From Actinomyces sp. Marseille-P3109 (lineage in GTDB: Bacteria > Actinomycetota > Actinomycetes > Actinomycetales > Actinomycetaceae), in assembly GCF_900323545.1 (NCBI RefSeq), contig NZ_OOHN01000008.1, positions 1,479,144 through 1,543,143 on the forward strand: a stretch of 64,000 bases of DNA, given 5' to 3'. How positions within the stretch are numbered: the stretch's first letter is position 1; every line of letters starts with the position of its first letter. Under the pieces are notes generated by a model, which saw nothing but the letters and a program-made list of their open reading frames with translations, had not been told where the DNA came from and did not search any database. Shown piece after piece: positions 37,723 through 61,426 of this stretch. Made by a program: the position numbers and the translations under genes.

Positions 37723-37766
37723 CGTTTTCTCCTCTTCTTTTACCGACAGAAATGCTGTCGACCATC

Positions 37767-42045: not shown

Positions 42046-42048
42046 GCA

Positions 42049-43557: not shown

Positions 43558-46500
43558 CTATAACTCACCTTCATCGACATCTGCCCCAAGACTCTTCTCA
43601 ATGCGCTCTACCAGAGAACGAATCGTCGGAGCCATGAAGACGTCTTGTATAGAGACCTCCACCGACATCTCTCGCTTGATCGAGTTGACAAGATGAACGG
43701 CGGCGAGAGAATCACCTCCGAGCTGGAAGAAGTCGTCATCAATGCCAACCTCCTTCTCATCCAGGATTCTTGTCCACATCTCAAGAACTCTTCTTTCCCT
43801 GTCGTTACCTGGAGCAGCGGGTTCCGCCCGCCGATCAAACGACTCCGACCCTAAAAGGTTTCTGTCAATTTTTCCGTTCCACGTACGAGGAAGATCATCA
43901 CGCAGAATGACTCGGCGAGGCTGCATATAGTCAGGGAGGAACTCGGCCAGGTGCTGGCTTATCAGGGCGTCCCGAGTCTTATCGGTGACAACGGCGTACA
44001 GGAGGATGACGCCGTCGGTGACGGTGGCTACACAGTCGCGCACACCGGGCAGGTCAAGGGCGACGGACTCGATCTCCTTCAGCTCGATCCGGTAGCCACC
44101 GACCTTGACCTGGCTGTCGCTCCGTCCGAGGAACACGATTTTGCCATCGCGACCATACATGGCCCGGTCACCCGTACGATAGAGCCGCTCGCCCGATCTC
44201 GGATGGTGGATAAACGACTCTGCTGTTTTTTCAGGATCGTTCCAGTAGCCCAGTGCCAGCCCCCGACCTCCGATATACAGGTCTCCGGGGACGAGACTCG
44301 GACGGTGTTCAAGGGCCGAGTCGAGGATGTACATCTTTTGATTCGCCAGTGGCCGGCCGTACGGTATGCTCGCCAACATGGCGTCCGCGGCGCTGATCTC
44401 GTACCAGTTGGACCAGATCGATGCCTCCGTCGCTCCGCCCAGCCCATAGGCTCGACAGCTCTTGAAGGTCTCTGCGACGCGCAGCGCGATGTCGACCGGG
44501 ATCCAGTCACCGCTCAGGAGCACCGCTCGGGTGGTTTCGTCGACAAGTGCTCTGTCCTTGAGATGGCCGGCATACATCGAGAAGAGCGCGGGTACGGAGT
44601 TCCACAGCGTGACGCCATGTGACCGCACCAGATCCCACCAGTGCGACGGCTCGAGCTCGGCTGCCGGTGAGGGCATGACCACTGCCCCGCCACAGGCGAG
44701 CATTCCGAAGACGTCATAGACGGACAGGTCGAAGTTCATCTGAGACAGGGCCAGAATCCGGTCGTCGGGCCCGGCATTGAGTCGGTGGTTGACGTCACGG
44801 ATGGTGTTCACCGCGGAGCGGTTGGTGATCGCCACTCCCTTGGGTCTTCCAGTGGTCCCCGAGGTATAGATGATGTAGGCCGGTTCATCCGCGCGGGAGT
44901 CCGTGTGACGCGGGAAGGGTTCCACGGACGCCCTCGCTGACCCGCGCCATGCATCATCATCCTGCTCACCCGTTGCGCGGGTAGGACGGACGGCATCGAC
45001 TGTGCCGGCAGTACTTTCTTGCACCTCCGGCACTGACATGACGACGCACTGCCGCACCATGGTCTCGCTCACGTGGTCATGGCTATCGGTCAGGATGATG
45101 CGGGCTCCGGCGTCGGCGATGATTCTGCCGTTGCGGGCCTGAGGATGAGTGGCATTGAGCGGCAGGTACGCGCAGCCCGCCTTGAGCACGCCGAGAGCTG
45201 CACTGACCTGGTAGGCCGACTTCTCCATGAGTATCGCCACGACGCTGCCCGGTGCAAGCGCCTGGGCGGCGATGAGCCGGGCCCATTGATCCGACTCGGC
45301 GTCCAGCTCGGCATAGGTCAGCTCGCGTGACTGATCGATCACCGCTGCCCGTTCGGCGTGGCGATGACGGCTCTCATGGAACAGTTCGAGCAGCGTCGGG
45401 TCGGTGGTTCTCGTGTCCAAGGCTCCGGCATCCGATGTCTCGGTGGCGTTGAGCTCGGCGATCGCCTCCGTGTTGAACCTCGGGCAGACCGTGAGCGTCT
45501 CATCGCAGAAGATTGAGGTCGTCGCCAGTAGCCGTACAGCCTGAGTGAGCGCCCGGAACATCTCGGCCACCATCCCGTCGGGGAAGATGCCTTCGACGGA
45601 GTCGAGGTTGAGGACAAGGCTTCCGGCGTCGTCGTACACCTGCAGGTCCATCCACACCTGAGGTGTCTGAGACAGACCGTGGTCGATACTCCCCAGATAC
45701 GGATGAGCAGTATCTGGGCCCTGCTCGACGACGCCCAGCCCGCAGGTGAACACCACTGGCATGGTGATCTGGGACCTGCGCTGCCGGTTGAGCATGCGTT
45801 CCACCGCGACTCCGGAGACGTGACTGTGAGCGAGGTTGCTCCACATCCGCCGTTGAAGTGCACGAGCGCGCTCACTGAAGGAGGAGCCGCTGTGAGTGTC
45901 CACGCTCAGGATCGACAGGCTCGTGAAGTCACCCACGATGGAGTCGACCTCGGGAGCGAACCGGATCCGGTCGAACTGCGTCAGGTTGATGCTGAGCCTC
46001 GGGCTCTCGCTGTAGGCAGCCAGTACCTCCGCGTAGACCTCCGCCAGGAACGCGGCCTCGGTCAGGCCCTCGGCTCGTATCCGCTCCTTGGCAGCGCCCC
46101 AGACGGGGGCGTCGATACGTGCCTGCTGCCTCACGAACTCCGAGGAGGCGTCGACGGGCGACACGGGCAGCTGCGGCGCCGGGTGGATCTGGCTCAGGTG
46201 ATCCTCCCAGTACTGCAGGTCCCGGCGATACGCATCGCCGGCCCTCAGACGGACTGTGGCCTCCACGTAGTCCTTGAAGGAGTATGCGGTCGCCTCCGCG
46301 TCAATGGACAGGGGGCCTACCTCATACAGCTCCTTCCACTCGCGGAACACCTGGAACATGCTCCAACCGTCGACGAAGGTGTTGTCGAAGCTGAGGAAGA
46401 GCCGTGCTCCGCGGTCCCCGAAGGCCGTGTAGCGCACGTCGAAGCACGGCCAGCGGCGGGGATCGAACCTTTGACACGACATCTCCCGCCTCACCTCGGC

Positions 46501-49500
46501 GATCCGTCTGTCCTCAGGTGTCTTGTCGTCCGGGACTTCGACGATCGTGTAGTGAGGCGCTTCTGGCAGGAAGCGTTGAGTCAGACCGTCATCGCAGACA
46601 ACGGCGCGGAGCATAGGGTGTCGGCTGATGAGAGCGTTGAAGGAGTCCTCCAACCTCTCCAGATCGAGCACGGGCACGTCCATCTCGACGTAGCAGTGGC
46701 TCGATACGTCCCCCAGCTCAATGGCTCCCGAGCTCCCGATGAGGTAGGACTGCTGCACATCGGTCAGGGGGAAGGGCTCGTACTGGTCCTCACCGTGCTC
46801 CATCGCTGGCAGCTCGGCCTTGGAAGGGACCTGGCTCGCACTGGCCTCGATTCGCGCCGCCATATCAGCGAGTACCGGAGCCTCGAAGACGACCTCCAGG
46901 CTGAACTCGATCTCGAAGCACTCCTCGATCTGCCGCCTGAGCCTGGTGGCCATCAACGAGTCACCACCGAGTCGGAAGTAGTCGCTGTCGGGACTGGCAT
47001 CCGTCCCCAGCAGAGCGTTCCAGATCTCGATCAGCCTGGCCTCGGTCTGCGTCACAGGCTCTGCGCGAGTGCCCTGGCCGTCTTCAGACTGCTCCAGCGG
47101 TACCAGAGCCGCGAGCGCTTTGCGGTCCACCTTGCCGTTGGCCGTCACAGGAAAGTCCGATACGCGCACGATCCTGTGGGGCAGCATGTAGTCGGGCAAT
47201 CGCCTCGACAACAGCACGATGGCCTCTTCGTAGTGCTGCTGCGACAGGAGGGTGGGAGTCTCCGCTCCAGTCCCGGAGGCGATGAGGAGGATCAGGGAGT
47301 CCGTCAGGTTGGTGCGCGAGACCCGGGTGTAGCCCGTGCGTTCCAGCGCCTCGGCCCATTCCTCCGCGGTGAGAAGCATGTCTCCGGTATGACGGCGAGC
47401 ATCTCGATAGTCGGGGCTGAAGAATGCCGCGCTGATGTCGGCCAACGGGGACGCCCCCGTCGGCTCGAGGAGGATCAGCGTTCCCTGCGGCTTGAGCAGC
47501 TTGCGGATTCTGCGAAGAGTCGCGTCGATGTCGACGGACTGATGGAGCGTCTGGTTGCAGATCGCCAGGTCGATCCCTTGGTCGGCGAAAGTCCCCTTCT
47601 CGGCGGCCGGGGCCTGAGCCCGGGGCGTGAGCAGCATCTGCTCGAACCGTCCGTCTGCAAGCCGTTCCACCTGGTCCAGGTAGTACCGGGAGTAGTCCGC
47701 GACGACATAGAGGGACGGCTGGGTGGCGCGGAGGTACTCCTCGGTCTCGTTCATCCGTCTGGCACCGACCTCGAGCACCCTCAGCCCGCTGCCGAGCTGT
47801 CGGTGGATCTCGTCCAGGAGTGCTCGGATCGCACGATGGGTGAGCCGGCCCAGAGGCCGATCGGCGATGAAGGCCTCGATGGGCAGGAAGTCGGGTGACT
47901 GAACAAGATCGGCCGCGTTCATCGGCGCCTCGTCGTCGATGAACGTCTTGCCGAAGGGGGTGATGAAGCCGTCGAGCTCCGCTCGCTCAGCTGCCGTCAC
48001 AGGAGTCGTCACCGTGTCCTGGGTGAGCCACTGCGCCCACCGTCGCCTCAGTCGATCAAGCCGGATGGGTGAGTCGGCTGCGTCGGGACCGGCATCGCGA
48101 TCTGCGAGGCGCTGGATCCACCGCCGCATGGTCTGGCGGGCGTATGCGTCCTGTACCTTCTCGTCGTGCGCGATGGCCTCAAGCATCGCGTCGTCGGTGA
48201 GTAGAGGCGCGAGCACGTCGGCGGCTTCCAGGCTCACTGCCTCGGACGGCGCGGGATCGGGAACCGGAGCGGTCTCCGGCTGGATGAACGTCACCAGGGA
48301 CTGGGCGCTCTGCCCCGGGTGCAGGACGCACACGGCCCGTTTCGCGGCGAGCAGCGCCTCACAGGCCGCCTCGATCTCACCGAGCTCGATGCGGTGACCG
48401 CGCAGCTTGATCTGGGTGTCGGACCGGCCGAGGAACTCCAGGGTGCCGTCGTGCCAGAACCTTCCCAGGTCGCCGGTGCGGTACCAGCGGCTTCCTTCGT
48501 GGACGACGAACTTGTCCTGCGTGAGTCGGGGGTCGTCAACGTATCCCCTGGCCACACCGAGCCCGCCGATCCACAGCTCGCCGACGACGTAGTCCGGGCA
48601 GTCCCGCCCGGTGGCGTCGACCACGCGGTAGGCCTGGCGATCCAGCGCGCGCCCGTAGGGGATGGACACCCATTCCTCGGGAACCTCATCGACGTCGAGA
48701 GCGTTCGACCAGATCGCGGCCTCGGTGGCCCCTCCCATCGCGAGCAGGCGGCAGCTGGGCAAGAGCGTCCTCAGCCGTGCCGGCAGGCTCACGTCGATCC
48801 AGTCGCCGGAAAGCAGGACGTGGCGCAGGCTCGCCAGCGGGCGCGGGTCCTGTTCGGCGCTGGTCAGAAGCATCTCGAACAGCACGGGAACCGAGTTCCA
48901 CACGGTGATGCGGTGAGATTGAACCGCCCTGAGCCAGTAGTCGGCGTCTCGACGAGCCGACTCGGGAATCGTCACCAGCGTCCCCCCGGCGCAGAGAGTG
49001 CCGAAGGCGTCGTAGACCGAGAGGTCGAAGTCGAAGGCCGAGACGCCCAGGACCGCATCCTGGGGGCCTAGCCCGATCCTTCTGCTCACCGTCTCAATCG
49101 TGTTCCACACGGCCCCGTGGCTCATCTCCACACCCTTGGGCGTCCCTGTCGTTCCCGACGTGTAGATGACGTAGGCGGAATCCGCCGGCCCCACGGCGGG
49201 AAGACTGACGTCCTGGTCACCGGCAAGGGCCTCATCGAAGGTGATGACGGTAACGCCGGCTTGCGCCCAGTGGTCCGGTGAGGGGTCGTCAGTCAGGAGG
49301 AAACGCAGTCGAGGAGAGGAGACAATGGTGGCGACCCGTTGCTGAGGCTGGCTCGGGCTGATCGGTACGTAGGCCATGCCGGCGGCCATCACTCCGAGCG
49401 CCGCGACGATCTGCTCCGGTCCCCGGGGAAGCATCACGGCCGTCAGGTCTCCTGTGCCCGCTCCGGCTGCCACCAGGGACTGGGCGACTGCTCGCGCGCG

Positions 49501-51294
49501 AGCGGCCAGCTCATGGTACGTCGTCACCTGGCCGTCGCCGGTGCTGACGGCCTCGGACTGCGGGTGACGTGCCGCGGTGTCGAAGAAGCGGTCGATGAGC
49601 GTCGAGTCGGGCAGCCGCCACCGGGGCAGGTCCGCAAGCGCCCAACGGCGCTGAGCCACGCCGCGGCTCTCGACGACGTCGCCGTGATCCAGCCCGGCGG
49701 AGATGACCCGTTCGATCTCACGGACAAGGCAGTCGAACATCTCATCCAGGAGTCCGGTGGGAAAGATCTGCTCGACGGCGTCCCAGATGAGGGTGAACCC
49801 GTCGATGGTGTTGAAGACCTGCAGGTCGATCCACACCTGAGGAGTCTGCGAGATCATGTATCCGATCTCGCCGAATGCCTCGACGAACTCCTCGTCCACC
49901 AGGGGGCTGCCAAGATTGCAGGAGAACACCACCGGGGCGAGGACCTGCTCGCCCCGCTGAGAGCGCAGGTCACGCAGCACCTTGACCGCGGAGTACGCCG
50001 AGTGGGAGACATCCTCATAGAAGGAGTCCTGGATGGCGCCGAGGTCATCGACGAAGCGGCGGTGACACGACTGATCGACCTGGGTGAGGGTGAGGGTGGT
50101 GAAGTCGGCGACGACGTCCTCGATCGCAGGATCGGAGTCCCGGTTGAACAGTGGGATGCTGATGAGAAACCGCTTGTCCTCACTCCAGCCGGCAATGGTG
50201 CGCGCGTACGCGGTCAGCAGGACCATGGCCGGGGTCGTCCCGTGGTCCTCGCACAGTGCCCGCAGGTCCTGCCAGGACTTCTGGTTGAAGGTGTGCGAAC
50301 GGCGGGTGAAACGTGGGATCGTCGTCGTCAGCTCGGAGCCCTGGCGCACAGGGAGCTGAGGACCTCCGGTCAGCTCGGGGAGGCGCGAGCGCCAGTACTC
50401 CTCGTCCTGTTCACGGTTCGCCGCGTCCCGACGCGCCTTCTCCTTCAGATAGGTCGCAAAGCTCCAGGACGGGTCCACCCTGGGTGGCTGTCCAGTGAGA
50501 TAGTGATGGGCTAGGTCGCGCAGGATGATCTGGAAGCTGCGCACATCGCACACGAGAAGGTCGATGTCGAAGTGGACGATGGCGCGGTCCTGACTCAGGC
50601 GGCTGACCTGGAGGCAGCACACCTGGCCGTTCTCAATGTCCAGCAGCCGGTGGGACAGCGTGTCGCGCATCTCCAGGAGCGCCGCCTGCTGTCCTTGCTC
50701 ATCCAGGTCGGTCAGATCGTGCACGACGACGGTGGCGTCCGGTGGCTCGGGCAGCACGCGCTGCTGGCCGTCTCGGGTGTAGCAGGCCCTGAGCATGGGG
50801 TGTGCTCGCAGCACGGCGTTCCAACTGGCCTCCAGCCGTGGCGCGTCGATAGCCCCGGCCTCGATCTCGACATACCCGTGGCAACCGACACCGCCCAGCT
50901 GCTGCTCCCGACCACGACCGATCCAATAGGCGTACTGGACGTCTGTGAGGTCGAAGGGCTCGAAGTCTGCAGCGTCGGAGGGATGAGGGTTGCTATCCGC
51001 CGGAGCGGCTTCGTCAGGACCGTCAGCCTGGTCGTCAGCCGAGTCGTCGGCCGGCCCTCCGGGAGCGGCTTCGTACAGCATGTCGGCCCACTGAGCGATG
51101 GTAGGACTGCGCATGAAGGAGCCGAAGGACACGCGGTACCCCTGTTTGATCCACTCGGCGAGCAGCCGCATGGTGGGGAGGGACTCCAGCCCCAGCTTAA
51201 GAAGGTTGTCCGTGTCCTCCAGCGCGACCTCATCACCGATCAACGTGGACAGGGACTTACGGAGCCGCTCACGGATCTCGTCTTTGGTCAGCAC
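43558..51294 (-). CDS. Nonribosomal peptide synthetase 1, aryl carrier plus two cysteine-cyclizing modules
   Basis: About 2578 residues. Domains in order: aryl carrier (LGLESLPTM, Ser near 38), cyclization 1 (TDVQYAYWIGR near 118; DLLVCD near 245), adenylation 1 (IYTSGTTGTPKG near 710), an inserted methyltransferase-like segment (about 990-1350) lacking the Gly-rich loop, carrier (LGGDSL, Ser near 1446), cyclization 2 (DNTFVD), adenylation 2, and carrier (LGGDSL). Both A domains show FDLSVYD, WNSVP, LLSGD and an IWS motif, matching the cysteine code. It would build an aryl-bis-thiazoline. The GTG at 51294 has GGAAGGA upstream; ATG 51327 would overlap the AMP-ligase gene. Confidence 0.93.
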   Translation of the reverse strand: MLTKDEIRERLRKSLSTLIGDEVALEDTDNLLKLGLESLPTMRLLAEWIKQGYRVSFGSFMRSPTIAQWADMLYEAAPGGPADDSADDQADGPDEAAPADSNPHPSDAADFEPFDLTDVQYAYWIGRGREQQLGGVGCHGYVEIEAGAIDAPRLEASWNAVLRAHPMLRACYTRDGQQRVLPEPPDATVVVHDLTDLDEQGQQAALLEMRDTLSHRLLDIENGQVCCLQVSRLSQDRAIVHFDIDLLVCDVRSFQIILRDLAHHYLTGQPPRVDPSWSFATYLKEKARRDAANREQDEEYWRSRLPELTGGPQLPVRQGSELTTTIPRFTRRSHTFNQKSWQDLRALCEDHGTTPAMVLLTAYARTIAGWSEDKRFLISIPLFNRDSDPAIEDVVADFTTLTLTQVDQSCHRRFVDDLGAIQDSFYEDVSHSAYSAVKVLRDLRSQRGEQVLAPVVFSCNLGSPLVDEEFVEAFGEIGYMISQTPQVWIDLQVFNTIDGFTLIWDAVEQIFPTGLLDEMFDCLVREIERVISAGLDHGDVVESRGVAQRRWALADLPRWRLPDSTLIDRFFDTAARHPQSEAVSTGDGQVTTYHELAARARAVAQSLVAAGAGTGDLTAVMLPRGPEQIVAALGVMAAGMAYVPISPSQPQQRVATIVSSPRLRFLLTDDPSPDHWAQAGVTVITFDEALAGDQDVSLPAVGPADSAYVIYTSGTTGTPKGVEMSHGAVWNTIETVSRRIGLGPQDAVLGVSAFDFDLSVYDAFGTLCAGGTLVTIPESARRDADYWLRAVQSHRITVWNSVPVLFEMLLTSAEQDPRPLASLRHVLLSGDWIDVSLPARLRTLLPSCRLLAMGGATEAAIWSNALDVDEVPEEWVSIPYGRALDRQAYRVVDATGRDCPDYVVGELWIGGLGVARGYVDDPRLTQDKFVVHEGSRWYRTGDLGRFWHDGTLEFLGRSDTQIKLRGHRIELGEIEAACEALLAAKRAVCVLHPGQSAQSLVTFIQPETAPVPDPAPSEAVSLEAADVLAPLLTDDAMLEAIAHDEKVQDAYARQTMRRWIQRLADRDAGPDAADSPIRLDRLRRRWAQWLTQDTVTTPVTAAERAELDGFITPFGKTFIDDEAPMNAADLVQSPDFLPIEAFIADRPLGRLTHRAIRALLDEIHRQLGSGLRVLEVGARRMNETEEYLRATQPSLYVVADYSRYYLDQVERLADGRFEQMLLTPRAQAPAAEKGTFADQGIDLAICNQTLHQSVDIDATLRRIRKLLKPQGTLILLEPTGASPLADISAAFFSPDYRDARRHTGDMLLTAEEWAEALERTGYTRVSRTNLTDSLILLIASGTGAETPTLLSQQHYEEAIVLLSRRLPDYMLPHRIVRVSDFPVTANGKVDRKALAALVPLEQSEDGQGTRAEPVTQTEARLIEIWNALLGTDASPDSDYFRLGGDSLMATRLRRQIEECFEIEFSLEVVFEAPVLADMAARIEASASQVPSKAELPAMEHGEDQYEPFPLTDVQQSYLIGSSGAIELGDVSSHCYVEMDVPVLDLERLEDSFNALISRHPMLRAVVCDDGLTQRFLPEAPHYTIVEVPDDKTPEDRRIAEVRREMSCQRFDPRRWPCFDVRYTAFGDRGARLFLSFDNTFVDGWSMFQVFREWKELYEVGPLSIDAEATAYSFKDYVEATVRLRAGDAYRRDLQYWEDHLSQIHPAPQLPVSPVDASSEFVRQQARIDAPVWGAAKERIRAEGLTEAAFLAEVYAEVLAAYSESPRLSINLTQFDRIRFAPEVDSIVGDFTSLSILSVDTHSGSSFSERARALQRRMWSNLAHSHVSGVAVERMLNRQRRSQITMPVVFTCGLGVVEQGPDTAHPYLGSIDHGLSQTPQVWMDLQVYDDAGSLVLNLDSVEGIFPDGMVAEMFRALTQAVRLLATTSIFCDETLTVCPRFNTEAIAELNATETSDAGALDTRTTDPTLLELFHESRHRHAERAAVIDQSRELTYAELDAESDQWARLIAAQALAPGSVVAILMEKSAYQVSAALGVLKAGCAYLPLNATHPQARNGRIIADAGARIILTDSHDHVSETMVRQCVVMSVPEVQESTAGTVDAVRPTRATGEQDDDAWRGSARASVEPFPRHTDSRADEPAYIIYTSGTTGRPKGVAITNRSAVNTIRDVNHRLNAGPDDRILALSQMNFDLSVYDVFGMLACGGAVVMPSPAAELEPSHWWDLVRSHGVTLWNSVPALFSMYAGHLKDRALVDETTRAVLLSGDWIPVDIALRVAETFKSCRAYGLGGATEASIWSNWYEISAADAMLASIPYGRPLANQKMYILDSALEHRPSLVPGDLYIGGRGLALGYWNDPEKTAESFIHHPRSGERLYRTGDRAMYGRDGKIVFLGRSDSQVKVGGYRIELKEIESVALDLPGVRDCVATVTDGVILLYAVVTDKTRDALISQHLAEFLPDYMQPRRVILRDDLPRTWNGKIDRNLLGSESFDRRAEPAAPGNDRERRVLEMWTRILDEKEVGIDDDFFQLGGDSLAAVHLVNSIKREMSVEVSIQDVFMAPTIRSLVERIEKSLGADVDEGEL

Positions 51295-51307
51295 GCGTCG
51301 TCCTTCC

Positions 51308-52963: not shown

Positions 52964-53574
52964 CACGCGAACCTCACCGAGATGTCTCCTCCACCGAGGC
53001 GGCACCTGAGCCTGTCCTCGGCCCCGGATCGGCGGCAGATGTCCACAGCGATGGCGCTCCCCTCGAAGACGATCTGCTCGATCCGTGTGATCCCGTTGGG
53101 GTGGGCCGAGCGCCGGTGCGTGTCGATGTCGAAGGGCGTGACGAACATCGGGACACTCCAGTCGTCCGGTACGAGGCAGAGGCACGACAGTCGTCTGCCG
53201 TGCACATCCTTGCGGGAGATCGTCGGGGTGAGTGTTCTCAGACCGTGCTCCCGGCAGATGCTCGCCAGCTCGGTGAACTCCTCCCGTTCCACCTCGAGGA
53301 CGACTCGGCTGTATCCCTCACGCTGCTGCGCAACGGAGTCCGAGACCGCCACCATGCGGTGTTGACCGAGAATCTTGAGGTATGCACGGGCAAGACGGGG
53401 TATGAACACGCCGGAGATGATCTCCAGGTACGGTCCCGTGGAGAAGTAGATCACCGCGTTCCTGGGGCTCCTCGCCTGCCCGTACTCGACCTCAAAGCCC
53501 TCCTGCCGGAAACGCGAGACGGCCTGTGCAAGATCATCGGCCTTGTAGATGACGTGCCCGATCCTGGCCACCAC
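52963..53574 (-). CDS. VOC-superfamily (glyoxalase-like) protein of the metallophore operon
   Basis: A 203-residue protein starting VVARIGHVIYKADDLAQAVSRFRQEGF, a typical glyoxalase-like/VOC opening with a candidate metal-binding His, followed by AVIYFSTGPYLEIIS. The C-terminal half repeats the fold loosely. VOC proteins include lyases, dioxygenases and binding proteins, and I cannot assign a reaction. It is three bases downstream of NRPS2 and overlaps the aryl-AMP ligase start, so it is certainly co-expressed with the assembly line. Possible roles are starter supply, tailoring or self-protection. Confidence 0.78.
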   Translation of the reverse strand: MVARIGHVIYKADDLAQAVSRFRQEGFEVEYGQARSPRNAVIYFSTGPYLEIISGVFIPRLARAYLKILGQHRMVAVSDSVAQQREGYSRVVLEVEREEFTELASICREHGLRTLTPTISRKDVHGRRLSCLCLVPDDWSVPMFVTPFDIDTHRRSAHPNGITRIEQIVFEGSAIAVDICRRSGAEDRLRCRLGGGDISVRFA

Positions 53575-53577
53575 CCG

Positions 53578-56500
53578 TCACCTGCTCTCGTCGAAGTAGC
53601 GGATGATGGACTCGACGTTGCCCTCGAGCAGGCAGGTTGCGTGCGAGCCTCTGACGGTCGCCGTCTCCAGCTCTCCCAGGACGGTGCCGGGCCAGTCGAC
53701 GTCACCGCCCAGCGAGGGGTAGAAGCCGTCCACGCCGTGCTCCGGCTGCAGGACGAGGACCCTGCCCAGATACACGTCCGGGACGTAGCCGATCGTTCCC
53801 CGCAGGGAGTGTCTGAAGACGTCGTACAGAATCTCCAGCATGGTCCGGGCGCTGTCGGAGTCGGCATCGATTCCCTCGATGGCCTCGTAGATGAGCCGTC
53901 GACGGCGTCGTGGAGACATTCGCGACAGGTCGGTGAAGAATGCGCCGATGGCGGCGTAGTCCCCATCGAGGGAGCAGAGCTCCTCATCGGCGATGTCGCG
54001 GTTGACGCCGTCGAGAATCTGACTGAGCGCGTCGTGGAGCTGACCGAGGCTGAAGGACGCTCCGATGGTACGAGGATCCATATCGAGAATGCAGCCGTAG
54101 GCGAGCTCGCACAGGAGCTCGTTGGTGATGCGGTGCGGGCACAGGTGGGTGCTGAGGGCAACGACCCTTTCGACGTGCTTTCCCAACTCGGTGAGGATCT
54201 TCGCCGTCTCGATGGCGAAGAATCCTCCGATGCAGTACCCGACCAGCTCATAGCTGTCCATGTTGAGGTCCACGAGATCCTGGGCATACAGTCGCGCCCG
54301 CTCGGTCATGAGCGAATCCGTGGGGCTATCCAGGTACTCGTCCGCGTCCGCGGCGGTGAACCCGATGTGGGCGGCATAGGGGTCCATCTCCATGAGGGCC
54401 GGCACGAGGTGCTCGTAGTCCTTGAGCCGGCCGGTTCCCGTGTGGAACACGGCTCGGCACCGCTTGCTGCCGTCAGGGATCGTGTAGACATGCACGCGCT
54501 CGGTCCGGTCCGGCTCAATGAGTGCGTCGCCCTGAGCAGGCGCGGCCTCCCTGGTCGCTGAGGCGATGTCAGCCACCGTGGGGTGCTTGAGCATCTCTCG
54601 CATGATGAAGTCCCAGCTCTGCCCGCTCAGGGCGTCAACCTCCTGGCGCATCCTCGTAACGGTCTGGGCCATCAGGAGCGAGTCCCCGCCCAGGGCGTAG
54701 AAGTCCTGATCCCGACCTACTCCCTCGACGTCGAGCACGTCACGCCACACCGCGGCGATCCTCTCCTCCAGATCGCCCTGCGGCCGGGTGGTTGCCGAAG
54801 CGCTGGGGGCGGGGCCGGGAGAGCCCGCCCCGACCAGCGACCGCCTGTCGATCTTCCCCTGAGGGCTCAGCGGCATGGCGTCCACGACCTTGACGGAGGC
54901 GGGAACCATGTAGCCCGGGAGGTTCTCACGTAGGAGGTCCAGCAGGTCCTCCTCGAGGACCGGGCGCGCGCCACCCTCCCCGACGACGAGGAGCCGTTGA
55001 CCGCACTCGCGAAGGGGGTCTCCCGCAGCCGGGTACTCGGCGACCCGTTCCAGCCCGGCTCGGGCGAAGACATCTCTCCACTGCTCGTCCGTGATGAACA
55101 CCTTGTGGCCGCCGGCACGCACGTCCGTGAACTCCGTCAGACTCAGTTTGATGAATATCGAGATCAGCGCTATGTACAACTCAGTTACCGGTTCCACCAT
55201 GACGATGATCCCGCCCGGACTGCGCAGCCGGTTCAACCGGGCGAAGACATCATCGATGTTGATCGCGTTGTGCAGGACGTTGGCGCACACGATAACGTCG
55301 TACGAGCCCCCCTCGATATCCTGGTGGCCACAATCGGCATTGATATCGAAAATCCCATAGGTCATGAAATCATACTGACGATAATTCTCTTTCGCGCGAC
55401 GCAGGAAGAATTCGGATACGTCGGTGAATCTGTACTCGGAGACGGTGCCGGGAAGTCGAGGAAGAATGTGCTCGGTCGTCGCTCCCACACCGGCGCCGAC
55501 CTCGAGGATCCTGGTTGGTCGGTCCCCGCGTGCCTCGATGATGCTCACCAGCGCATCAGACACGGCCGTGTTGATCGAGCCGCTCGCACGATTCCCCCCG
55601 TAGATCGCGCGGGCCTTGCCCGTCCCGCCTCCGGGGAACAGTATCTCCACCGGATTCACCTCGCCTCGCACCTGACTCAGCAGGGTATTTGCCGCACGAC
55701 GTTGATACTCGAATGACTCGGAGCTGTTGCCCACCTGATCATCAAGCGCAGCGAATCGGTTCCATCTCTCCTTCATGCGATAACGCTCGAGGCTGTCCCG
55801 GGTGATGCTGAATCCACGGTCGTCGCGCAGCAGGATGCCCTCGGAGACGAGGATGTCAAGCCAGCGGTCCACCAGCCTCCTGAGATCGGGGGCGGGAGCG
55901 AGACGGGCAACGATATCGCCGTCGTCACCACCTTGATGGTGGGTGCCCGGCTCAGTGAAGAGCCCGGCCTCGGTGAACGCCGCCAGCAGGGCGGCCAGGG
56001 ACGCCTCGTTACCGGCCCGCATCCATGCTGCGTAGGTTGCGGCGTCCGGGCCGGCGGGTGAGGCCTTCACGGCCCACTGACGGGTGAGAGCCTCCACCAG
56101 CGGACCGGGGTTCCTAGAGGCCTCATGAGCCGCTTCGACGGCCGAGGAGGTCTCCTTCCGGGCGGGCGTCACGAATGCCCTCAGCGCCTTGCGCCCGTTG
56201 ACGTCCTCGGCGATGACGACGGCCTGCTCCACGTCCTGGTGCCCACGTAGAACGGATTCGATCTCGCCCATCTCGACCCGGTACCCGTTGATCTTGACCT
56301 GGTTGTCCGCCCGGCCGCGGAAGTCGATGACCCCATCGGGACGGTGGCTGCCGATGTCACCGGTGTCGTAGAGACGGCGATTCTGCCGCGCGGAGACGAA
56401 GAACTTCTGCTCCGTGGTCTGCGGGTCATCGAGGTACTCCACCGCCAGGCCGTCTCCGGAGATATGGATCCTGCCCTTGACGCCGTCGGGGCACTCGTTG

Positions 56501-59049
56501 AGGAGCTCGTCGAGCACGTACACCGCCTGACGCGACAGAGGCACTCCGTAGGGGATGTTCTCCTCACCGGTGTGATCGGTCATCACGTGGTAGATCGACC
56601 AGATACCCGCCTCGGTGGCGCCTCCCAGGCTGATGAGCTCGGCGCGGGGGAAGACCGGCACGGCGCGCGCCGGCAACGTGCGGGGGATGACGTCGCCCGA
56701 CAGCAGGACGAACTCCAGGTTCACGTCAGGCGACAGCTGCCCGGCCCGGCGTTCCTCCAGGAGCATCTCGAACAGGGCGGGCACGGAGTTCCAGGTGTCC
56801 ACGCCGCCGGCACGGATCAGCTCGATCCACGCGCTCGGGTCCCTGACCTCGGACTCTGTCGGCAGGACGAGGGTCCCTGCGCTTGAGAAGGCCCCGAAGA
56901 TGTCGTAGACGGACAGGTCGAAGGAGAGGCGGGAGACTCCGAGCACAGTCCTTGGGCGGGAGCGCCCGAAGCGCTCATTGACGTCGGCGATCGTGTTCAT
57001 CGCGGCGGCATGCGTCATGACAACGCCCTTGGGGGTTCCGGTACTACCGGAGGTGAAGATGATGTAGGCGGGCGCGTTGGCCGGCACGGGCGGCGGGAGC
57101 GGACCGGTCCAGGTGGTGGGCTGCAGCTCGTCGACATCGACGACGTGGGGTGCACTGTTCCCCGCGCTGTAGCCTGCGTCGGCGATGATCAGCCGCGGGT
57201 GGCAGACCGACACCATCCGTTCCTGGCGAGCGGCCGGCTGGTCGTGGTCGATCGGGACGTAGATCGCCCCTCTGGACAGGACGGCGAGCACGGCGGCCAC
57301 CTGCCAGACGCTCTTGCCCAGGACGATGGCAACCCGATCTCCTTCCCCGATGCCTGACAGCAGCGGGTCCAGGGCCTGGACGTATCCCGCCAGATGTCGG
57401 TACGAGTGGCTCCTGCCACCGTGCACCAGGGCGATGTCGTCGGGACGGTCCCGGACCTGATCCCAGAAACCGGCGTGCAGCGTCGTGGCGGGCCGCTCGG
57501 TGTCCGTTCGCCGTATGCGGGCACGCACGGCCTGCATCCGGCTCCCGAGGCGTACGACGTCGTCGGACTGCCAGACGGACTCGTCATCGGCCAGGCGGTC
57601 AAGCGCCTGCGTGAAGCTCTCCCACATGTCCTGGAGAATCGCCGGCGGGATGGTGCCCTCCCGCACGTCCCAGTTGACGTTGCAGGTGGCACCGTCCTCC
57701 AGCGCCTGACAGTCGATCCACACCTGCGGTGTCCGGCTGACGCCGTGAACGAGCTCGACCGCTGCGTCGTCCTGACGCCGCGGTCCGGTTCCCAGCGCAC
57801 CGGTGAAGACCACGGGGACCACGACGCTCTCGCCCTTCGCCCTGCTCATCTCACGCAAAACCTCCGTCCCGGAGAAGGCTGTGTGAGAGAGCTCCTCGGC
57901 CATCTGATGCTGGGTGACCCTGACTCTGTCGATGAAAGGTCCGGGGTGCGCGCGGCTGGCGTGGACGGTGACGTCCGTGAAGTCCCCGACGACGCGCTCG
58001 ATCCCGGGCACGCGGTCGCCGCGGCTCATGGAGGTCACGTTGACGCAGAAGTCCGGTGAGGTCGACCATCGCCGAAGGACGTCGGTGTAAACGGTCAGGA
58101 GGACGTTCGACGGTGTCACTGCGTACTTCTTCGCCCGGGTCACCAACGCGGCCCACGACTCCGGCGAGCACCTCCAGGTGCGGCGGGTGAAGCGGACGGG
58201 ACCGTCGACCTCCCCGACGCCACGTTCAATCGGGAGGGACGGCCTGGCCGGAAGGGAGCCGATGGCGTCCAGCCAGTACTGCCTGGCGCTGTCGTACTCC
58301 CCCCTCCCGGCTGCGGAAGCACGCCAAGAGATACGGGAGACGACGATGTCTCTGAAGGACGCCTCGGGCAGAGGGGCGAGTGGCCTGCCGGCGTAGAGGG
58401 CCATGAGCTCATCCACCATGACCTGAACGCTGACGAAGTCGGCGATCGTCATGTCGACGGAGAACTGCACGATGCTGCACTCATCGAACTGGAGCAGGCG
58501 GAACTCATGAAGCGGCCACTCATCCGGGGAGTAGGTCCTGTCCTCCATCTCGCGACGGCAGCTCAGGTAGTCCTCATCCGGGATCTGAGGGTCGTGCCCG
58601 CGCAGATCGCGCTCCTTGAGCACAGGTCCCTCCCCGAAGGGGACGACCTGGAGCATGTCCGGCGCCACCACCACCGCCGACAGCAGGTCATGCCGCTGGA
58701 TCAGGGCGTGCCAGGCGGTCTCCAGACGTGCTCGGTCCAGGCGCGGAGTACGCAGCTCGACGTAGCTGTGGCAACCGGTTCCCCCGAGCTCGTAGCCGGC
58801 ATGCCGCCCGGTGTTGTAGGCGCGCTGAATATCCGTCATGGGGAACGGCTCGTACCGCGACTCGGCGTCATGCTGGATTGCTCCCACAGATCGCAGATGG
58901 GCCAGGATCTCATGCTTACGCTTCTTCAGAGCAGCGAAGTCCTGCTCGCCCAACACACCTGTGGGCGCCCGGTAACCCAGCTTGTCGCCGTTGTCCCACA
59001 GGACGACACCGCGAAGCCGGAGCCCCTCGATCAGTTCCTCAATATCCAC
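53578..59049 (-). CDS. Nonribosomal peptide synthetase 2, cyclization module with methyltransferase and thioesterase
   Basis: About 1823 residues. Domains in order: a TubC-type docking domain (about 1-55; GDKLGYRAPTG), cyclization (TDIQRAYNTGR near 72; DMTIAD near 199), adenylation (FTSGSTGTPKG near 665, with FDLSVYD, WNSVP, LLSGD and GIWS, a cysteine-like code), inserted methyltransferase (about 1100-1350, intact EVGAGVGATTE), carrier (LGGDSL, Ser near 1457), and thioesterase (about 1510-1823). The thioesterase elbow is GYCIGG, so the nucleophile is Cys near 1606, with HATCL as the likely His. The GTG at 59049 has AGGAG seven bases upstream. It adds the third ring and releases the product. 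Confidence 0.93.
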   Translation of the reverse strand: MDIEELIEGLRLRGVVLWDNGDKLGYRAPTGVLGEQDFAALKKRKHEILAHLRSVGAIQHDAESRYEPFPMTDIQRAYNTGRHAGYELGGTGCHSYVELRTPRLDRARLETAWHALIQRHDLLSAVVVAPDMLQVVPFGEGPVLKERDLRGHDPQIPDEDYLSCRREMEDRTYSPDEWPLHEFRLLQFDECSIVQFSVDMTIADFVSVQVMVDELMALYAGRPLAPLPEASFRDIVVSRISWRASAAGRGEYDSARQYWLDAIGSLPARPSLPIERGVGEVDGPVRFTRRTWRCSPESWAALVTRAKKYAVTPSNVLLTVYTDVLRRWSTSPDFCVNVTSMSRGDRVPGIERVVGDFTDVTVHASRAHPGPFIDRVRVTQHQMAEELSHTAFSGTEVLREMSRAKGESVVVPVVFTGALGTGPRRQDDAAVELVHGVSRTPQVWIDCQALEDGATCNVNWDVREGTIPPAILQDMWESFTQALDRLADDESVWQSDDVVRLGSRMQAVRARIRRTDTERPATTLHAGFWDQVRDRPDDIALVHGGRSHSYRHLAGYVQALDPLLSGIGEGDRVAIVLGKSVWQVAAVLAVLSRGAIYVPIDHDQPAARQERMVSVCHPRLIIADAGYSAGNSAPHVVDVDELQPTTWTGPLPPPVPANAPAYIIFTSGSTGTPKGVVMTHAAAMNTIADVNERFGRSRPRTVLGVSRLSFDLSVYDIFGAFSSAGTLVLPTESEVRDPSAWIELIRAGGVDTWNSVPALFEMLLEERRAGQLSPDVNLEFVLLSGDVIPRTLPARAVPVFPRAELISLGGATEAGIWSIYHVMTDHTGEENIPYGVPLSRQAVYVLDELLNECPDGVKGRIHISGDGLAVEYLDDPQTTEQKFFVSARQNRRLYDTGDIGSHRPDGVIDFRGRADNQVKINGYRVEMGEIESVLRGHQDVEQAVVIAEDVNGRKALRAFVTPARKETSSAVEAAHEASRNPGPLVEALTRQWAVKASPAGPDAATYAAWMRAGNEASLAALLAAFTEAGLFTEPGTHHQGGDDGDIVARLAPAPDLRRLVDRWLDILVSEGILLRDDRGFSITRDSLERYRMKERWNRFAALDDQVGNSSESFEYQRRAANTLLSQVRGEVNPVEILFPGGGTGKARAIYGGNRASGSINTAVSDALVSIIEARGDRPTRILEVGAGVGATTEHILPRLPGTVSEYRFTDVSEFFLRRAKENYRQYDFMTYGIFDINADCGHQDIEGGSYDVIVCANVLHNAINIDDVFARLNRLRSPGGIIVMVEPVTELYIALISIFIKLSLTEFTDVRAGGHKVFITDEQWRDVFARAGLERVAEYPAAGDPLRECGQRLLVVGEGGARPVLEEDLLDLLRENLPGYMVPASVKVVDAMPLSPQGKIDRRSLVGAGSPGPAPSASATTRPQGDLEERIAAVWRDVLDVEGVGRDQDFYALGGDSLLMAQTVTRMRQEVDALSGQSWDFIMREMLKHPTVADIASATREAAPAQGDALIEPDRTERVHVYTIPDGSKRCRAVFHTGTGRLKDYEHLVPALMEMDPYAAHIGFTAADADEYLDSPTDSLMTERARLYAQDLVDLNMDSYELVGYCIGGFFAIETAKILTELGKHVERVVALSTHLCPHRITNELLCELAYGCILDMDPRTIGASFSLGQLHDALSQILDGVNRDIADEELCSLDGDYAAIGAFFTDLSRMSPRRRRRLIYEAIEGIDADSDSARTMLEILYDVFRHSLRGTIGYVPDVYLGRVLVLQPEHGVDGFYPSLGGDVDWPGTVLGELETATVRGSHATCLLEGNVESIIRYFDESR

Positions 59050-59101
59050 AGAAAATCTCCTGACACTCTTGCAACCGTGAACGACGTGCTTGTCACCGTC
59101 G

Positions 59102-60184
59102 CTACCCGCCGGCACCGACGGAGGCGTACTCCATGAGCCGCGCCAAGGAGAGATGGTCGGGGGACATCTGAGATCCCAGCTCCCGTGACGACCCCAGGAG
59201 GCCTCCCATCTGAGCCCATACGGAGCAAAGAGCCAACGTGTACTCGGCTTCATGAGCGCGTTCGGTCGGGTGGTTCATCTGACGGAGGGCCTCATCGAGA
59301 AACTCGGCCACCGCGTCCGGCCACACCAGCTCGAACAGGCTGCGACGCGTCACGTTCGTCTCAACGGCCAGTTCCTCGTGGAGCACCGCCGAGCTCATAC
59401 GCTCGTCGGCATCGACATCCAGAACGCCTTGCCCAGTACGAGGGCTGACAATGTTCGGATGCCAGATGATCTTCCCATCCGTCTCAGTGAGCACGAGAGT
59501 CCCGGCCGAGGTGAAGACGCTGATTCTGTGACCCGCGTGAGCAAAGTCGTCCGGATTCGAGGGATTCATCCTGTTGACCACGCGAAAACTGACGGGAACA
59601 TCTCTGAACGAGGCGAGGACGGTTGTGAAAACCTCGGACTCGCCGCCCTGCAGATCAAGGCTCCACGGCGTGAACCCGCCGGTCGTTCTCCCGACGATGT
59701 CTATCATGGAGAAAAGAAAATGTATGCTGCACTCGGCCTGAACATGAATGATTCCATACTGGACACGCAGAGCCTCCACCAGCTTGAGGTAGGTCCTGAT
59801 CGTGGAGCTGTGCCGGTAAAAGCTGTTGATGATGAACGCGCGCCCGCTTCCGGCCGCCTCTCGGTAGCAGCTCACCGCGTCGGACCTGTGAACAGGGTGC
59901 TCCATGACCACGTGCTTTCCTGCGGCGAGGAACCGTTGAGCCAAGCGCGTCCCTTCCCCGCCCATGACCCCTGATCGGACCACGACGAAGGACACGTCGT
60001 GACCGGGAAGGTCCTCGATATCCGTATACAGGGGCACTCCCTGCCTCCTCGCGAAATCACGAGACTGCTCGCTGCCCCGGGAGAGCATGCCGACCAGCTC
60101 GTAGCTCAGAGGGCGGAGCCGAAGCCCCGCAACGTAGAGACGACCGAAGGTGGTGCCACATACCACTGCCCGCAACTTACTCAC
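59102..60184 (-). CDS. Thiazolinyl imide reductase (Irp3/PchG-like)
   Basis: A 360-residue NADPH-dependent oxidoreductase of the Gfo/Idh/MocA-like fold used in thiazoline siderophore pathways to reduce one thiazoline to thiazolidine while bound to the NRPS. The start VVCGTTFGRLYVAGLR matches the family Rossmann motif, and EHPVHRSDAVSCYR fits the conserved EHPxH region. GTG 60184 is used, with GGGGGAG upstream; the frame stays open to 60214. It precedes NRPS2 by 52 bases on the same strand. Confidence 0.92.
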   Translation of the reverse strand: MSKLRAVVCGTTFGRLYVAGLRLRPLSYELVGMLSRGSEQSRDFARRQGVPLYTDIEDLPGHDVSFVVVRSGVMGGEGTRLAQRFLAAGKHVVMEHPVHRSDAVSCYREAAGSGRAFIINSFYRHSSTIRTYLKLVEALRVQYGIIHVQAECSIHFLFSMIDIVGRTTGGFTPWSLDLQGGESEVFTTVLASFRDVPVSFRVVNRMNPSNPDDFAHAGHRISVFTSAGTLVLTETDGKIIWHPNIVSPRTGQGVLDVDADERMSSAVLHEELAVETNVTRRSLFELVWPDAVAEFLDEALRQMNHPTERAHEAEYTLALCSVWAQMGGLLGSSRELGSQMSPDHLSLARLMEYASVGAGG

Positions 60185-60274
60185 TTGCACTCCCCCGAAG
60201 CCCTCAGAACACACTTTCCAGAACCACGCATTTCACAGAACAGCTGACCACGGTCCAGTAAGGACCACCCCCGA

Positions 60275-61426
60275 TCACAGGAAACCGGATTCGATCAGCT
60301 CAGACTCGTGGGCGCTGGCACCCGCAGTCGTCGCCCCCTCTGCTTCAACGCTGACGCCCATGAGGCGCAAGGCATCCAGAAGCGGATCCACCTTCATGAG
60401 CTCGTAGCCCCACACGACCCCCTGCAGACAGTCCGATTCGAGGCCGCGAACCACCGACTGCGCCAGAAAGGCCGCTGTCAGCTCACTGCTGTCTCGAGAG
60501 CGGACGGTCATCGTGCTCCGTTGGGGCCTGCCTCGGAGATATCCGCGCGCCGTCACCTGGATGGCGAACCAGTTCTTCTTGCCTGCATCCAGTCTTGATT
60601 TGGCGTCGTCGATCTGAGAGAGCATGCCGATGAGATCGTCTGTATCACCCTCCTGACTGCACGTCATCGCCTTGAGAAGGAGGTGCAACGAGTCTCGATC
60701 CGGAATCACCAGGATTCCCGTCAAGGCAGGGATGCCTGAGTCGATCGCCACCTGGCGCAGCTCGTCCGTCACAAAAGGAGAGCGAATACTGTCATCGTCC
60801 GCTGGGAAGGCGTCAGTGTCCTCCGCCTCCTCCGTCCTCTCAACGTAGGGGTGAGGGCGACCATCCAGCACCATCTGGTTGGGATAGCCATATCCTTCAC
60901 GCGTACTGAGAATGACGTCGGCGAATCCCGCGACGCCACCCTGCTCCCTCCCACCACTGCAGACGGTCACCGCGCTGCAGACGTCCAATCGCGAGGCCAG
61001 ATGTCGCACCAGGAGCCCGCTGAGACCAGGAGTGCAGCCCGCATTGACGATTCTCAAGCCCTGCCCGCGATATCCCTCAAAGAGGTTACCGCCGAAAGGA
61101 TCGACGTAGACCACACTCTCCGGCAGAGCTGCGGCGACTCTGTCTGCGATGAGGTAGGACGGGCCGGCGCAGTTCACCAACGCACGGCACCCACGGGCGA
61201 ACCTCCGCACACTGTCCGGTTCATGAGCGTCAACGACGACGGCGTCCTCGTCGGAGCCTCTCCTGGTCCGGTTGCCGCAGACCACCTCGTACCCCGCACT
61301 GCGCAGGAGGGCGACCAGCACCCGCCCGACAGCACCGTGGGAGCCGATGACCCCGATGCGGTGCCCGCTAGCAGCTTGCGACAAGACGCCTCCCCACAGA
61401 TCGATAGCCGAGCCACAGAAGCGCAC
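60275..61426 (-). CDS. Saccharopine dehydrogenase-like NAD(P)-binding protein, first gene of the metallophore operon
   Basis: A 383-residue protein with a Rossmann motif IGVIGSHGAVGRVLVALL near residue 23 and a saccharopine-dehydrogenase-like layout (VNCAGPSYLIADRVA, VNAGCTPGLSG). The C-terminal half matches nothing I recognise. The family covers opine-type and trans-acting reductases, so a reductive tailoring step is possible, but the reaction is unknown. The start is taken as GTG 61426 with GGAGGTGA upstream; a TTG in front of LSQAASGHR, near GGGAGG, is an alternative. It lies directly behind the iron-box promoter. Confidence 0.75.
   Translation of the reverse strand: MRFCGSAIDLWGGVLSQAASGHRIGVIGSHGAVGRVLVALLRSAGYEVVCGNRTRRGSDEDAVVVDAHEPDSVRRFARGCRALVNCAGPSYLIADRVAAALPESVVYVDPFGGNLFEGYRGQGLRIVNAGCTPGLSGLLVRHLASRLDVCSAVTVCSGGREQGGVAGFADVILSTREGYGYPNQMVLDGRPHPYVERTEEAEDTDAFPADDDSIRSPFVTDELRQVAIDSGIPALTGILVIPDRDSLHLLLKAMTCSQEGDTDDLIGMLSQIDDAKSRLDAGKKNWFAIQVTARGYLRGRPQRSTMTVRSRDSSELTAAFLAQSVVRGLESDCLQGVVWGYELMKVDPLLDALRLMGVSVEAEGATTAGASAHESELIESGFL

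Follow-up and report, generated by a model that had tools for sequence, protein, structure and literature searches.

Gene content of the locus

The window analysed here is a 64,000-nucleotide stretch of Actinomyces sp. Marseille-P3109. Two NRPSs, a starter-AMP ligase, a thiazolinyl imide reductase and a saccharopine-dehydrogenase-like protein form the core of a cluster at positions 43558–61426 (Table 1). An earlier note on this DNA took these positions as the cluster boundaries, which is too narrow: on one side the cluster reaches as far as about 28.8 kb, and on the other it runs beyond the window end, adding a PPTase, a type II TE, exporter-type ABC genes and two ECF import systems. The start codons listed for NRPS1 and the ligase also lie too far upstream. 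NRPS1 exceeds its near-identical homologues by about 68 residues and the ligase by about 74, and stop codons fall within both N-terminal extensions in relatives; the true NRPS1 start is probably near 59049.

Table 1. Genes and features of the cluster (window positions; L014 position + 59000 = window position)
Feature	Position	Strand	Evidence or remark
ECF-type importer, ATPase-ATPase-CbiQ fusion, 826 aa	61785..64000, cut by window end	-	profiles; L014:2785-5265
ABC_cobalt S component	just past window end, L014:5258-5953		
Saccharopine-dehydrogenase-like NAD(P)-binding protein, 383 aa	60275..61426	-	PF03435 in homologues, fold
Thiazolinyl imide reductase	59102..60214	-	TIGR01761 242.7 bits, cut-off 188.8; PF21390
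NRPS1: TubC_N docking, Cy3, A3 (Cys code) with inserted intact MT, PCP, TE (GYCIGG elbow)	53578..59253	-	
Starter-AMP ligase, salicylate/DHB ligase fold, pocket code DFNALGGT	51308..52963 (ORF open from 53185)	-	
NRPS2: ArCP-like carrier, Cy1, A1 (Cys code) with MT-like insert, PCP, Cy2, A2 (Cys code), PCP	43558..51327	-	
ECF S component, MptD/Trep_Strep family	42789..43418	-	TIGR02185 102.8 bits, cut-off 76.45
ECF T component (CbiQ-like)	42049..42792	-	PF02361
ECF ATPase, two ATPase domains	40570..42045	-	profile matches
DrrA-like ABC exporter ATPase	39337..40329	-	best NCBIfam TIGR01188 296.3 bits, below cut-off 312.45
ABC-2 exporter permease	38542..39333	-	PF01061
Type II thioesterase, GHSMG elbow (Ser)	36937..38145	-	PF00975 131 bits, residues 161-371; first ~130 ORF residues doubtful
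4'-Phosphopantetheinyl transferase	36158..36940	-	PF01648
IS1634-family transposase inside operon run	34331-35911		
ABC permease-ATPase half-transporter, YbtPQ/EqbKL-like arrangement	32484..34217	-	adjoins PPTase in L015
ABC permease-ATPase half-transporter, partner of 32484..34217 gene	30187..32487	-	
EryCIII/MGT-like glycosyltransferase, possibly cluster member	28796..30118	-	61% homologue adjoining TE in A. massiliensis L019

The core gene order from NRPS2 to the saccharopine-dehydrogenase-like gene is kept in three other Actinomyces genomes, and in all four the frames of the NRPSs and the ligase are uninterrupted, so the gene set is not due to chance. Alignment A1 was matched in 7 of 200 genomes in a survey of the family (E ≤ 1e-100) and in 73 of 296 in a survey of the class (E ≤ 1e-130). 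The presence of the cluster in just 4 of the 49 genomes of the genus, the host's own included, and the transposase within the operon run would fit a decaying cluster that makes nothing useful and whose unusual ligase pocket reflects drift. We consider this very improbable: the open frames, the conserved catalytic motifs and an altered pocket kept across 90 proteins (among the best 120 of 562 matches) all argue against it. A pattern scan found no consensus IdeR-like or Zur-like box.

Domains and codes of the assembly line

Pfam and NCBIfam profiles and the translations bear out two NRPSs with three Cy and three A domains, arranged as ArCP-Cy-A(MT-like)-PCP-Cy-A-PCP and docking-Cy-A(MT)-PCP-TE. 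The DxxxxDxxS cores of the three Cy domains are intact (SVDMTIADFVSV, FDIDLLVCDVRSF, FDNTFVDGWSMF). No PKS domains occur in the two NRPSs or among the other proteins scanned, as the earlier note had stated. The FDLSVYD, WNSVP and xIWS motifs of the proposed cysteine code are present in all three A domains; from them the code D-L-Y-N-L-S-M/L-I-W can be read by eye, which matches the published Cys code (PMC3672683). Ser/Thr codes are ruled out because the motifs fit the Cys entry of that table. The description of the product as tri-cysteine thus holds for the three codes, but caution is needed for the residues incorporated. In sorangibactin, all A domains are predicted to be Cys-specific and the first is inferred to use Ser (PMC10127202); by analogy, it is possible that A1 uses Ser despite its Cys code.

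The ArCP-like carrier at the N-terminus of NRPS2 has the motif LGLESL. This motif could be read in three of the four Actinomyces loci, since NRPS2 of A. massiliensis spans two fetched stretches. The single intact MT lies in the last module (NRPS1; motif I LEVGAGVGATT), whereas the MT-like domain of the first module lacks an intact motif I (LEVGARRMN). This insert may be a PchE-type epimerase, because of its place in module 1, its lost SAM motif and the His and Glu seen by eye; a comparison with the PchE E domain gave no sequence match, with hits to MT and A subdomains only. The imide reductase scores well above its TIGR01761 cut-off. A terminal TE is present in NRPS1, but its nucleophile is Cys and not Ser. 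The elbow reads GYCIGG in all four Actinomyces loci, and the Cys recurs in 23 of 25 further relatives (taken from the best 120 of 191 matches), the other two being unreadable at the elbow. Of the product class put forward earlier, the reduced and methylated last ring, pyochelin-like and N-methylated, is well supported as a prediction. A conventional salicylate cap is doubtful.

The saccharopine-dehydrogenase-like protein matches no NCBIfam family and has no PDB relative by sequence search, and PF03435 is carried by 7 of 20 homologues. Alignments with annotated saccharopine dehydrogenases (L053 and L055) show 36% identity across 174 aa and 30% across 355 aa, and the protein's predicted fold is closest to carboxyspermidine and lysine dehydrogenases (TM 0.62–0.70). 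In kind, it resembles the equibactin protein EqbM and the sorangibactin protein SrbE.

Comparison with known systems

The sorangibactin (srb) and coelibactin clusters share with this locus a pair of NRPSs that together comprise three Cy-A modules, with MT and TE in the last, a Cys-nucleophile TE and a saccharopine-dehydrogenase-like gene, and srb also has a thiazolinyl imine reductase (PMC10127202). They differ in having a salicylate synthase and a salicylate-type ligase pocket, neither of which was found here, and the ECF importers also set the present locus apart. No P450 of the CYP105N1/SrbH kind was detected by Pfam among 31 proteins in or beside the cluster (one submitted twice, at two lengths). 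The proposal that the cluster is closer to coelibactin therefore gains from the TE and the saccharopine-dehydrogenase-like gene (PMC10127202) and is weakened by the missing P450 and salicylate synthase. Mupirochelin (mch, Pseudomonas sp. NCIMB 10586) has in common the three-residue NRPS backbone, a saccharopine dehydrogenase, a reductase and a stand-alone TE, but differs by an isochorismate synthase and lyase, a P450, a VOC protein, additional methyltransferases and TonB receptors (PMC10080011).

Equibactin (eqb, Streptococcus equi) resembles the present cluster in having no salicylate synthase and in its E (putative here) and MT domains, EqbM, type II TE, PPTase and YbtPQ-like ABC pair. In equibactin, however, a single A domain serves three PCPs and the ligase has a salicylate code (N-F-C); the three A domains and Asp-type ligase (D-F-N) found here rule out membership. 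Pyochelin and yersiniabactin share the aryl-type carrier, Cy domains, Cys codes, reductase and last-module MT. Pyochelin has two Cys modules, and membership is rejected given the three present here. Yersiniabactin, which uses one A domain for three PCPs together with a PKS part (PMC3672683), is likewise rejected, as the cluster has three A domains and no HMWP1-type PKS module.

The starter ligase

The ligase pocket reads DFNALGGT and differs from the salicylate code NFCAQGVL at five of eight positions; the reference codes are NFCAQGVL/I for salicylate and NY/FSAQGVV for DHB (PMC3672683). At position 235, Asp replaces the Asn of salicylate/DHB ligases. The corresponding motifs are HDFPLANPG and QQGYGLGEGI, and the Asn235 and QQVxGMAEGL-type A5 motif of salicylate/2,3-DHB ligases are absent. 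The fold nevertheless remains that of salicylate ligases, with CahJ as the best Foldseek match (E 3.2e-58, 40% identity; model pLDDT 80).

Asp235 is not confined to this protein. It occurs in 90 of 118 full-length relatives from the best 120 of 562 matches, and these 90 have Gly or Ala at 322 without exception and Thr or Ser at 330 in 89 cases. In a FastTree phylogeny with the two pocket motifs masked, from which the partial matches P0010, P0088 and P0114 had been dropped, the Asp235 ligases form one split (local support 0.972 and 0.999). Judged by ligase sequence alone, the named Asp-code hits among the same best 120 come from Actinomyces, Staphylococcus, Mammaliicoccus, Brachybacterium, Lysinibacillus and Eubacterium. 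Among 22 non-Actinomyces loci (L030–L051), the code could be read by script in five (L030, L031, L042, L045 and L051), all of them Asn-type.

An Asp at this position may indicate an amine in the substrate. According to a review, the conserved Asp is missing from DhbE because the acid that this enzyme activates carries no alpha-amino group (PMC11253843). A point against is that NpsA binds 3-hydroxyanthranilate without the Asp (PMC11253843). One reading of Asp235 is that the substrate is a true alpha- or beta-amino acid; the molecule would then start with a free amine, and its metal would be zinc, copper, nickel or cobalt and not ferric iron. The ECF importers with cobalt-type components are consistent with this, as is an NRPS of S. 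lugdunensis that shares the ECF importer; no iron siderophore was seen in vitro, and its authors suggest inactivity or a non-iron metal (PMC12709192). We regard the amino-acid start as improbable: the first carrier is ArCP-like, Cy1 retains the MISQTPQVW pattern and the ligase is still 39–40% identical to an aryl ligase.

The Cy1 residue at the place of PchE Tyr484 was also considered. It is Phe in all four Actinomyces loci and Tyr in two loci with salicylate genes (L055 and L056). A yersiniabactin-like Vibrio locus (L054), which also has Phe and ends in a partial chorismate-enzyme match, and two loci with Asn-type ligases, where the residue is Asn (L021 and L024), count against taking Phe as support for a non-salicyl starter.

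Supply of the starter

Profile searches of the host genome, which covered chorismate-binding, chorismate mutase and isochorismatase-fold proteins, found no salicylate synthase or isochorismate lyase over the cut-off. The chorismate-binding family has two members there: TrpE (596 bits; cut-off, 471) and a protein resembling isochorismate synthases (218.6 bits, just below 224.75). The chorismate mutase lies above its own cut-off (150 vs 120) and reaches 30 bits with the isochorismate lyase profile, where 126 are needed. The isochorismatase fold occurs twice, in a nicotinamidase-like protein (100.6 bits; cut-off, 174) and in a second protein with only a weak match. The four cluster-bearing genomes have one CM_2 protein each and no extra CM_2/lyase candidate. 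Because of this gap in the genome and the ligase pocket, a conventional salicylate cap appears doubtful.

The A. massiliensis cluster, whose ligase is also Asp-type, holds a DhbC/EntC-like isochorismate synthase (L019:5189-6427; TIGR00543 242.7 bits, cut-off 224.75), which has no counterpart within the window. It is the sole one in its genome and 35–36% identical to those of the other three. Its presence points to some form of aryl cap and favours an isochorismate-derived aryl starter, which may be salicylate or dihydroxynaphthoate. It lowers the odds of an amine-bearing starter, since an amino-acid start would leave this enzyme without a role, and of our reading as a whole, and it raises those of salicylate.

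The ligase could use salicylate to give an ordinary salicyl-capped iron siderophore. The salicylate would be imported, as for equibactin, or an unrecognised lyase would form it from isochorismate. Equibactin has no salicylate synthase and needs added salicylate (PMC3672683), the host has its isochorismate-synthase-like protein, the nearest solved structures to the ligase are salicylate ligases, and the Asp pocket could accept external salicylate. Set against this, EqbD and an Anaerococcus ligase (L025) still have an Asn-type code, NFCGQGII, and both the five altered positions and the lack of a further lyase candidate count against it. We consider salicylate unlikely, though a stronger contender than an amino acid.

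An isochorismate synthase is found in each of the four cluster-bearing genomes, and menB exceeds its cut-off in all four; menaquinone supply was judged from these two genes. A naphthoate starter can be set beside the menB genes, the change of Val to Gly/Ala at 322 and the dihydroxynaphthoate predicted for a Sporomusa thiazoline cluster (PMC12971057). This karamomycin-like cluster of Sporomusa termitida shares the thiazoline NRPS logic without a salicylate synthase (PMC12971057), but its men genes lie within the cluster, whereas the host menB is located elsewhere in the genome.

Proposed pathway and significance

We favor, with a probability of roughly 0.55, a cluster that makes and takes up a linear metallophore with three heterocycles, of the coelibactin/sorangibactin/mupirochelin type, whose starter is neither salicylate nor 2,3-DHB. 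The domain content, codes, motifs, synteny and missing salicylate synthase and isochorismate lyase come from the sequences themselves, whereas the product, starter, metal and transport direction are what we infer here. The stand-alone ligase would activate another carboxylic acid and load the N-terminal carrier of NRPS2. The likeliest starters would be an acid that carries an amine close to its carboxylate (of the anthranilate type, or an amino acid) or a bulkier aryl acid derived from isochorismate or menaquinone biosynthesis, such as 1,4-dihydroxy-2-naphthoate. Cy1 and Cy2 would add and cyclise two cysteines, with the module-1 insert perhaps serving as epimerase, and NRPS1 would add and cyclise the third. 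The reductase and the intact MT would convert the third ring into an N-methylthiazolidine, and the Cys-nucleophile TE would release the chain. The saccharopine-dehydrogenase-like protein may perform a further step; its counterparts EqbM and SrbE are reported to be essential. Secretion would fall to the ABC exporters, and the metal complex would return through one of the ECF systems or both.

The molecule would belong to a known type, small, sulphur-rich and probably metal-scavenging. The ligase, however, is without the usual salicylate-binding residues, which points to a probably different starting block. More tentatively, and with the odds somewhat against it, the Asp-pocket ligases may represent a separate, widespread class of Gram-positive starter enzymes, human-dwelling genera included, that load amine-bearing or naphthoate-like starters and give thiazoline metallophores, perhaps non-ferric, entering via ECF importers. 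Genome mining finds NRP metallophores mainly via chelator-pathway genes, and one survey noted ten clusters without a chelator pathway anywhere in the genome (PMC12971057). Our results suggest that some such clusters may carry a different starter enzyme, recognisable from the eight-residue ligase code, instead of having lost salicylate genes.

A scan of viral contigs found no relative. The host is an Actinomyces close to oral species.

Assembly line and cluster extent

The host is an Actinomyces genome of 3.15 Mb (completeness 99.98%), and its closest named relatives found, judged by the best NRPS1 segment, are Actinomyces sp. ZJ308 (88%), oral taxon 170 (75%) and A. massiliensis (61%). By Pfam and NCBIfam matches, the stretch 43558-61426 codes for two NRPSs together with a free-standing AMP ligase, a thiazolinyl imide reductase and an NAD(P)-binding protein. 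The translations give the domain order ArCP-Cy-A(MT-like)-PCP-Cy-A-PCP for NRPS2 and docking-Cy-A(MT)-PCP-TE for NRPS1. Cysteine motifs are present in all three A domains and the DxxxxDxxS core in all three Cy domains, and both are conserved at three other Actinomyces loci. The NRPS assembly line described in the earlier note is borne out by domains and motifs, and was somewhat understated; the cluster extends further. Of its interpretation as the source of an aryl-capped tri-cysteine metallophore, the assembly logic stands, the cluster content was incomplete, and the aryl cap is doubtful if salicylate was meant.

Features of the cluster and its surroundings (window positions)
Feature	Position	Strand	Remark
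Cas3, type I-E CRISPR system	1186-4182	minus	side observation
Glycosyltransferase	28796-30118	minus	cluster end
Pair of ABC half-transporters		minus	same run
IS1634-family transposase	34331-35911		in operon run, between PPTase and ABC pair
PPTase		minus	same run
Type II thioesterase		minus	same run
DrrAB-like exporter		minus	same run as ECF set
ECF S + T + double-ATPase set	40570-43418	minus	same run
NRPS2	43558-51327	minus	
Ligase	51308-52963	minus	
NRPS1	53578-59253	minus	
Reductase	59102-60214	minus	
Saccharopine-DH-like protein	60275-61426	minus	383 aa
Second ECF gene, ATPase-ATPase-CbiQ			826 aa, cut by window end

Most of the extended cluster is backed by synteny with two other Actinomyces genomes, G036 and G031. 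A third, G017, has in common the core and the ECF-2 set as well as the exporter, a TE and the glycosyltransferase; no match to the PPTase or to the second ECF set turned up in the stretches read. The ABC_cobalt-family S component of the second ECF gene lies just outside the window; next come genes for Pup ligase and a proteasomal ATPase, marking the cluster border on this side. The IS1634-family transposase is probably an insertion into the window cluster, because in G036 (locus L015) the ABC gene adjoins the PPTase with no transposase between them. A second IS1634 match lies near the A. massiliensis cluster (L020:14006-15306). Given the cluster-linked glycosyltransferase, the product may be glycosylated; the A. 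massiliensis gene (L019:3322-4524) sits inside the cluster, its window counterpart at the end. The reductase match in G031 (L004) has one TGA.

Starter ligase pocket

In fold the ligase matches the salicylate ligases, with CahJ as its best solved relative. Its eight-position pocket code, D F N A L G G T, can be set against the published N F C A Q G V L/I (salicylate), N Y/F S A Q G V V (DHB) and N F C G Q G I I (EqbD) (PMC3672683). Among 118 full-length proteins (the query and 117 drawn from the 120 best of 562 matches), Asp occupies position 235 in 90; within this group position 322 is Gly in 78 and Ala in 12, and 87 have Thr330. In the other 28, position 235 is Asn (26 proteins) or Gly (2) and position 322 is V, I or S. 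The Asp group forms a single split in the tree of these 118 proteins, with local supports of 0.972 and 0.999, when both pocket motifs are masked. For DhbE, the missing conserved Asp has been related to a substrate that offers no alpha-amino group to coordinate (PMC11253843). By motif spacing, position 322 is the counterpart of BasE Val336, whose replacement by Gly or Ala was reported to enlarge the pocket and admit 4-substituted salicylates (PMC12005286). A small residue at this position is natural in the Asp-type clade. The Anaerococcus equibactin-like cluster keeps an Asn-type ligase, as do all five readable ligases among 22 non-Actinomyces loci.

The first Cy domain of NRPS2 (Cy1) was also compared with PchE, in which Tyr484 hydrogen-bonds the salicyl hydroxyl (PMC8807600). 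Counted from the D-x-Q motif, this place is Phe at all four Actinomyces loci. It is Tyr in Azospirillum, whose cluster has isochorismate synthase and lyase, in Pseudoalteromonas, whose cluster has a fused ligase-salicylate synthase, and in Streptomyces locus L052, whose ligase is Asn-type. Phe also occurs in a yersiniabactin-like Vibrio locus (L054) that ends in a partial chorismate-enzyme match, and Asn in two loci of a different congener cluster (L021 and L024), both with Asn-type ligases. On these sequences, the residue would carry little weight as a guide to the starter.

Possible routes to the starter

The host genome encodes TrpE, a single isochorismate-synthase-like protein and an ordinary chorismate mutase, also single; no protein scores above cut-off as a salicylate synthase or an isochorismate lyase. 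Each of the other three cluster-bearing genomes likewise has a single CM_2 protein. A. massiliensis has just one isochorismate synthase, which is DhbC/EntC-like (L019:5189-6427) and lies within the cluster between the exporter and the glycosyltransferase. Its identity to the isochorismate synthases of the other three genomes, themselves 84% alike, is 35-36%; the window cluster has no copy. Because this gene lies inside the cluster, its position links the cluster to isochorismate, at least in A. massiliensis. Salicylate could be made from isochorismate by an unrecognised or outside step. The menaquinone pathway is a second possible route on gene content, with menB above cut-off in all four cluster-bearing genomes; for a Sporomusa thiazoline cluster, the predicted cap is 1,4-dihydroxy-2-naphthoate (PMC12971057). 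A second ring of the starter would suit the putatively enlarged ligase pocket.

Relation to known systems

The TE elbow reads GYCIGG, with Cys replacing Ser, at all four Actinomyces loci, and 23 of 25 further relatives read likewise have Cys; the remaining two were a TE-less fragment and a non-homologue. An NRPS annotated as Corynebacterium diphtheriae (P0138) shows 55% identity across the TE region, with the same Cys elbow. The TE of the Anaerococcus equibactin-like cluster likewise has Cys (GHCIGG, L025:30386); EqbG was reported with Ala, and EqbM as required for equibactin production in E. coli (PMC3672683).

The 383-aa neighbour belongs to a saccharopine-DH-like family. PF03435 matches 7 of 20 homologues, identity is 36% (174 aa, Streptomyces NBC_00727) and 30% (355 aa, Azospirillum lipoferum) to proteins annotated as saccharopine dehydrogenase in NRPS clusters, and carboxyspermidine and lysine dehydrogenases come closest in predicted fold. 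A Cys-nucleophile TE and a saccharopine-DH-like gene are both present in sorangibactin and coelibactin, and the TE Cys and srbE/F/G are needed for sorangibactin (PMC10127202). The window cluster has these two features in common with them and resembles them in how it would work, but it is not a strict member of their family: no salicylate synthase reached cut-off in the host genome, and no P450 occurs among the 31 proteins in and beside the cluster that were matched to Pfam. A related cluster on a Streptomyces NBC_00727 plasmid (L053) has tryptophan 2,3-dioxygenase and saccharopine-DH genes, which suggests yet another starter.

Distribution

Of 49 genomes from the genus, six (the host included) have the reductase, and four of these carry the window-type cluster; the other two (G013 and G009) have a different, distantly related cluster with another ligase pocket. 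In two congeners, the thiazoline NRPS cluster at loci L021-L024 is a different one, and its ligase has a third pocket type, HNWPLT-HG. At E ≤ 1e-100 the ligase alignment is matched by 7 genomes in a family sample of 200: the four cluster-bearing Actinomyces, two with Asn-type ligases and one that is unreadable. Named matches with the Asp code, known from ligase sequences alone, include Actinomyces oris, Brachybacterium, Staphylococcus aureus, Mammaliicoccus, Lysinibacillus and Eubacterium cellulosolvens.

In the accessible portions of the open-access literature we found no description of the Actinomyces cluster or of Asp-type ligases, and the available parts of oral and airway BGC surveys (PMC8549736, PMC6469967) do not name the cluster. 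Further literature used was PMC10080011, on mupirochelin, and PMC11934131. The closest published remark concerns an ECF-linked NRPS of S. lugdunensis: the authors tie it to equibactin and raise perhaps a non-iron metal, or inactivity (PMC12709192).
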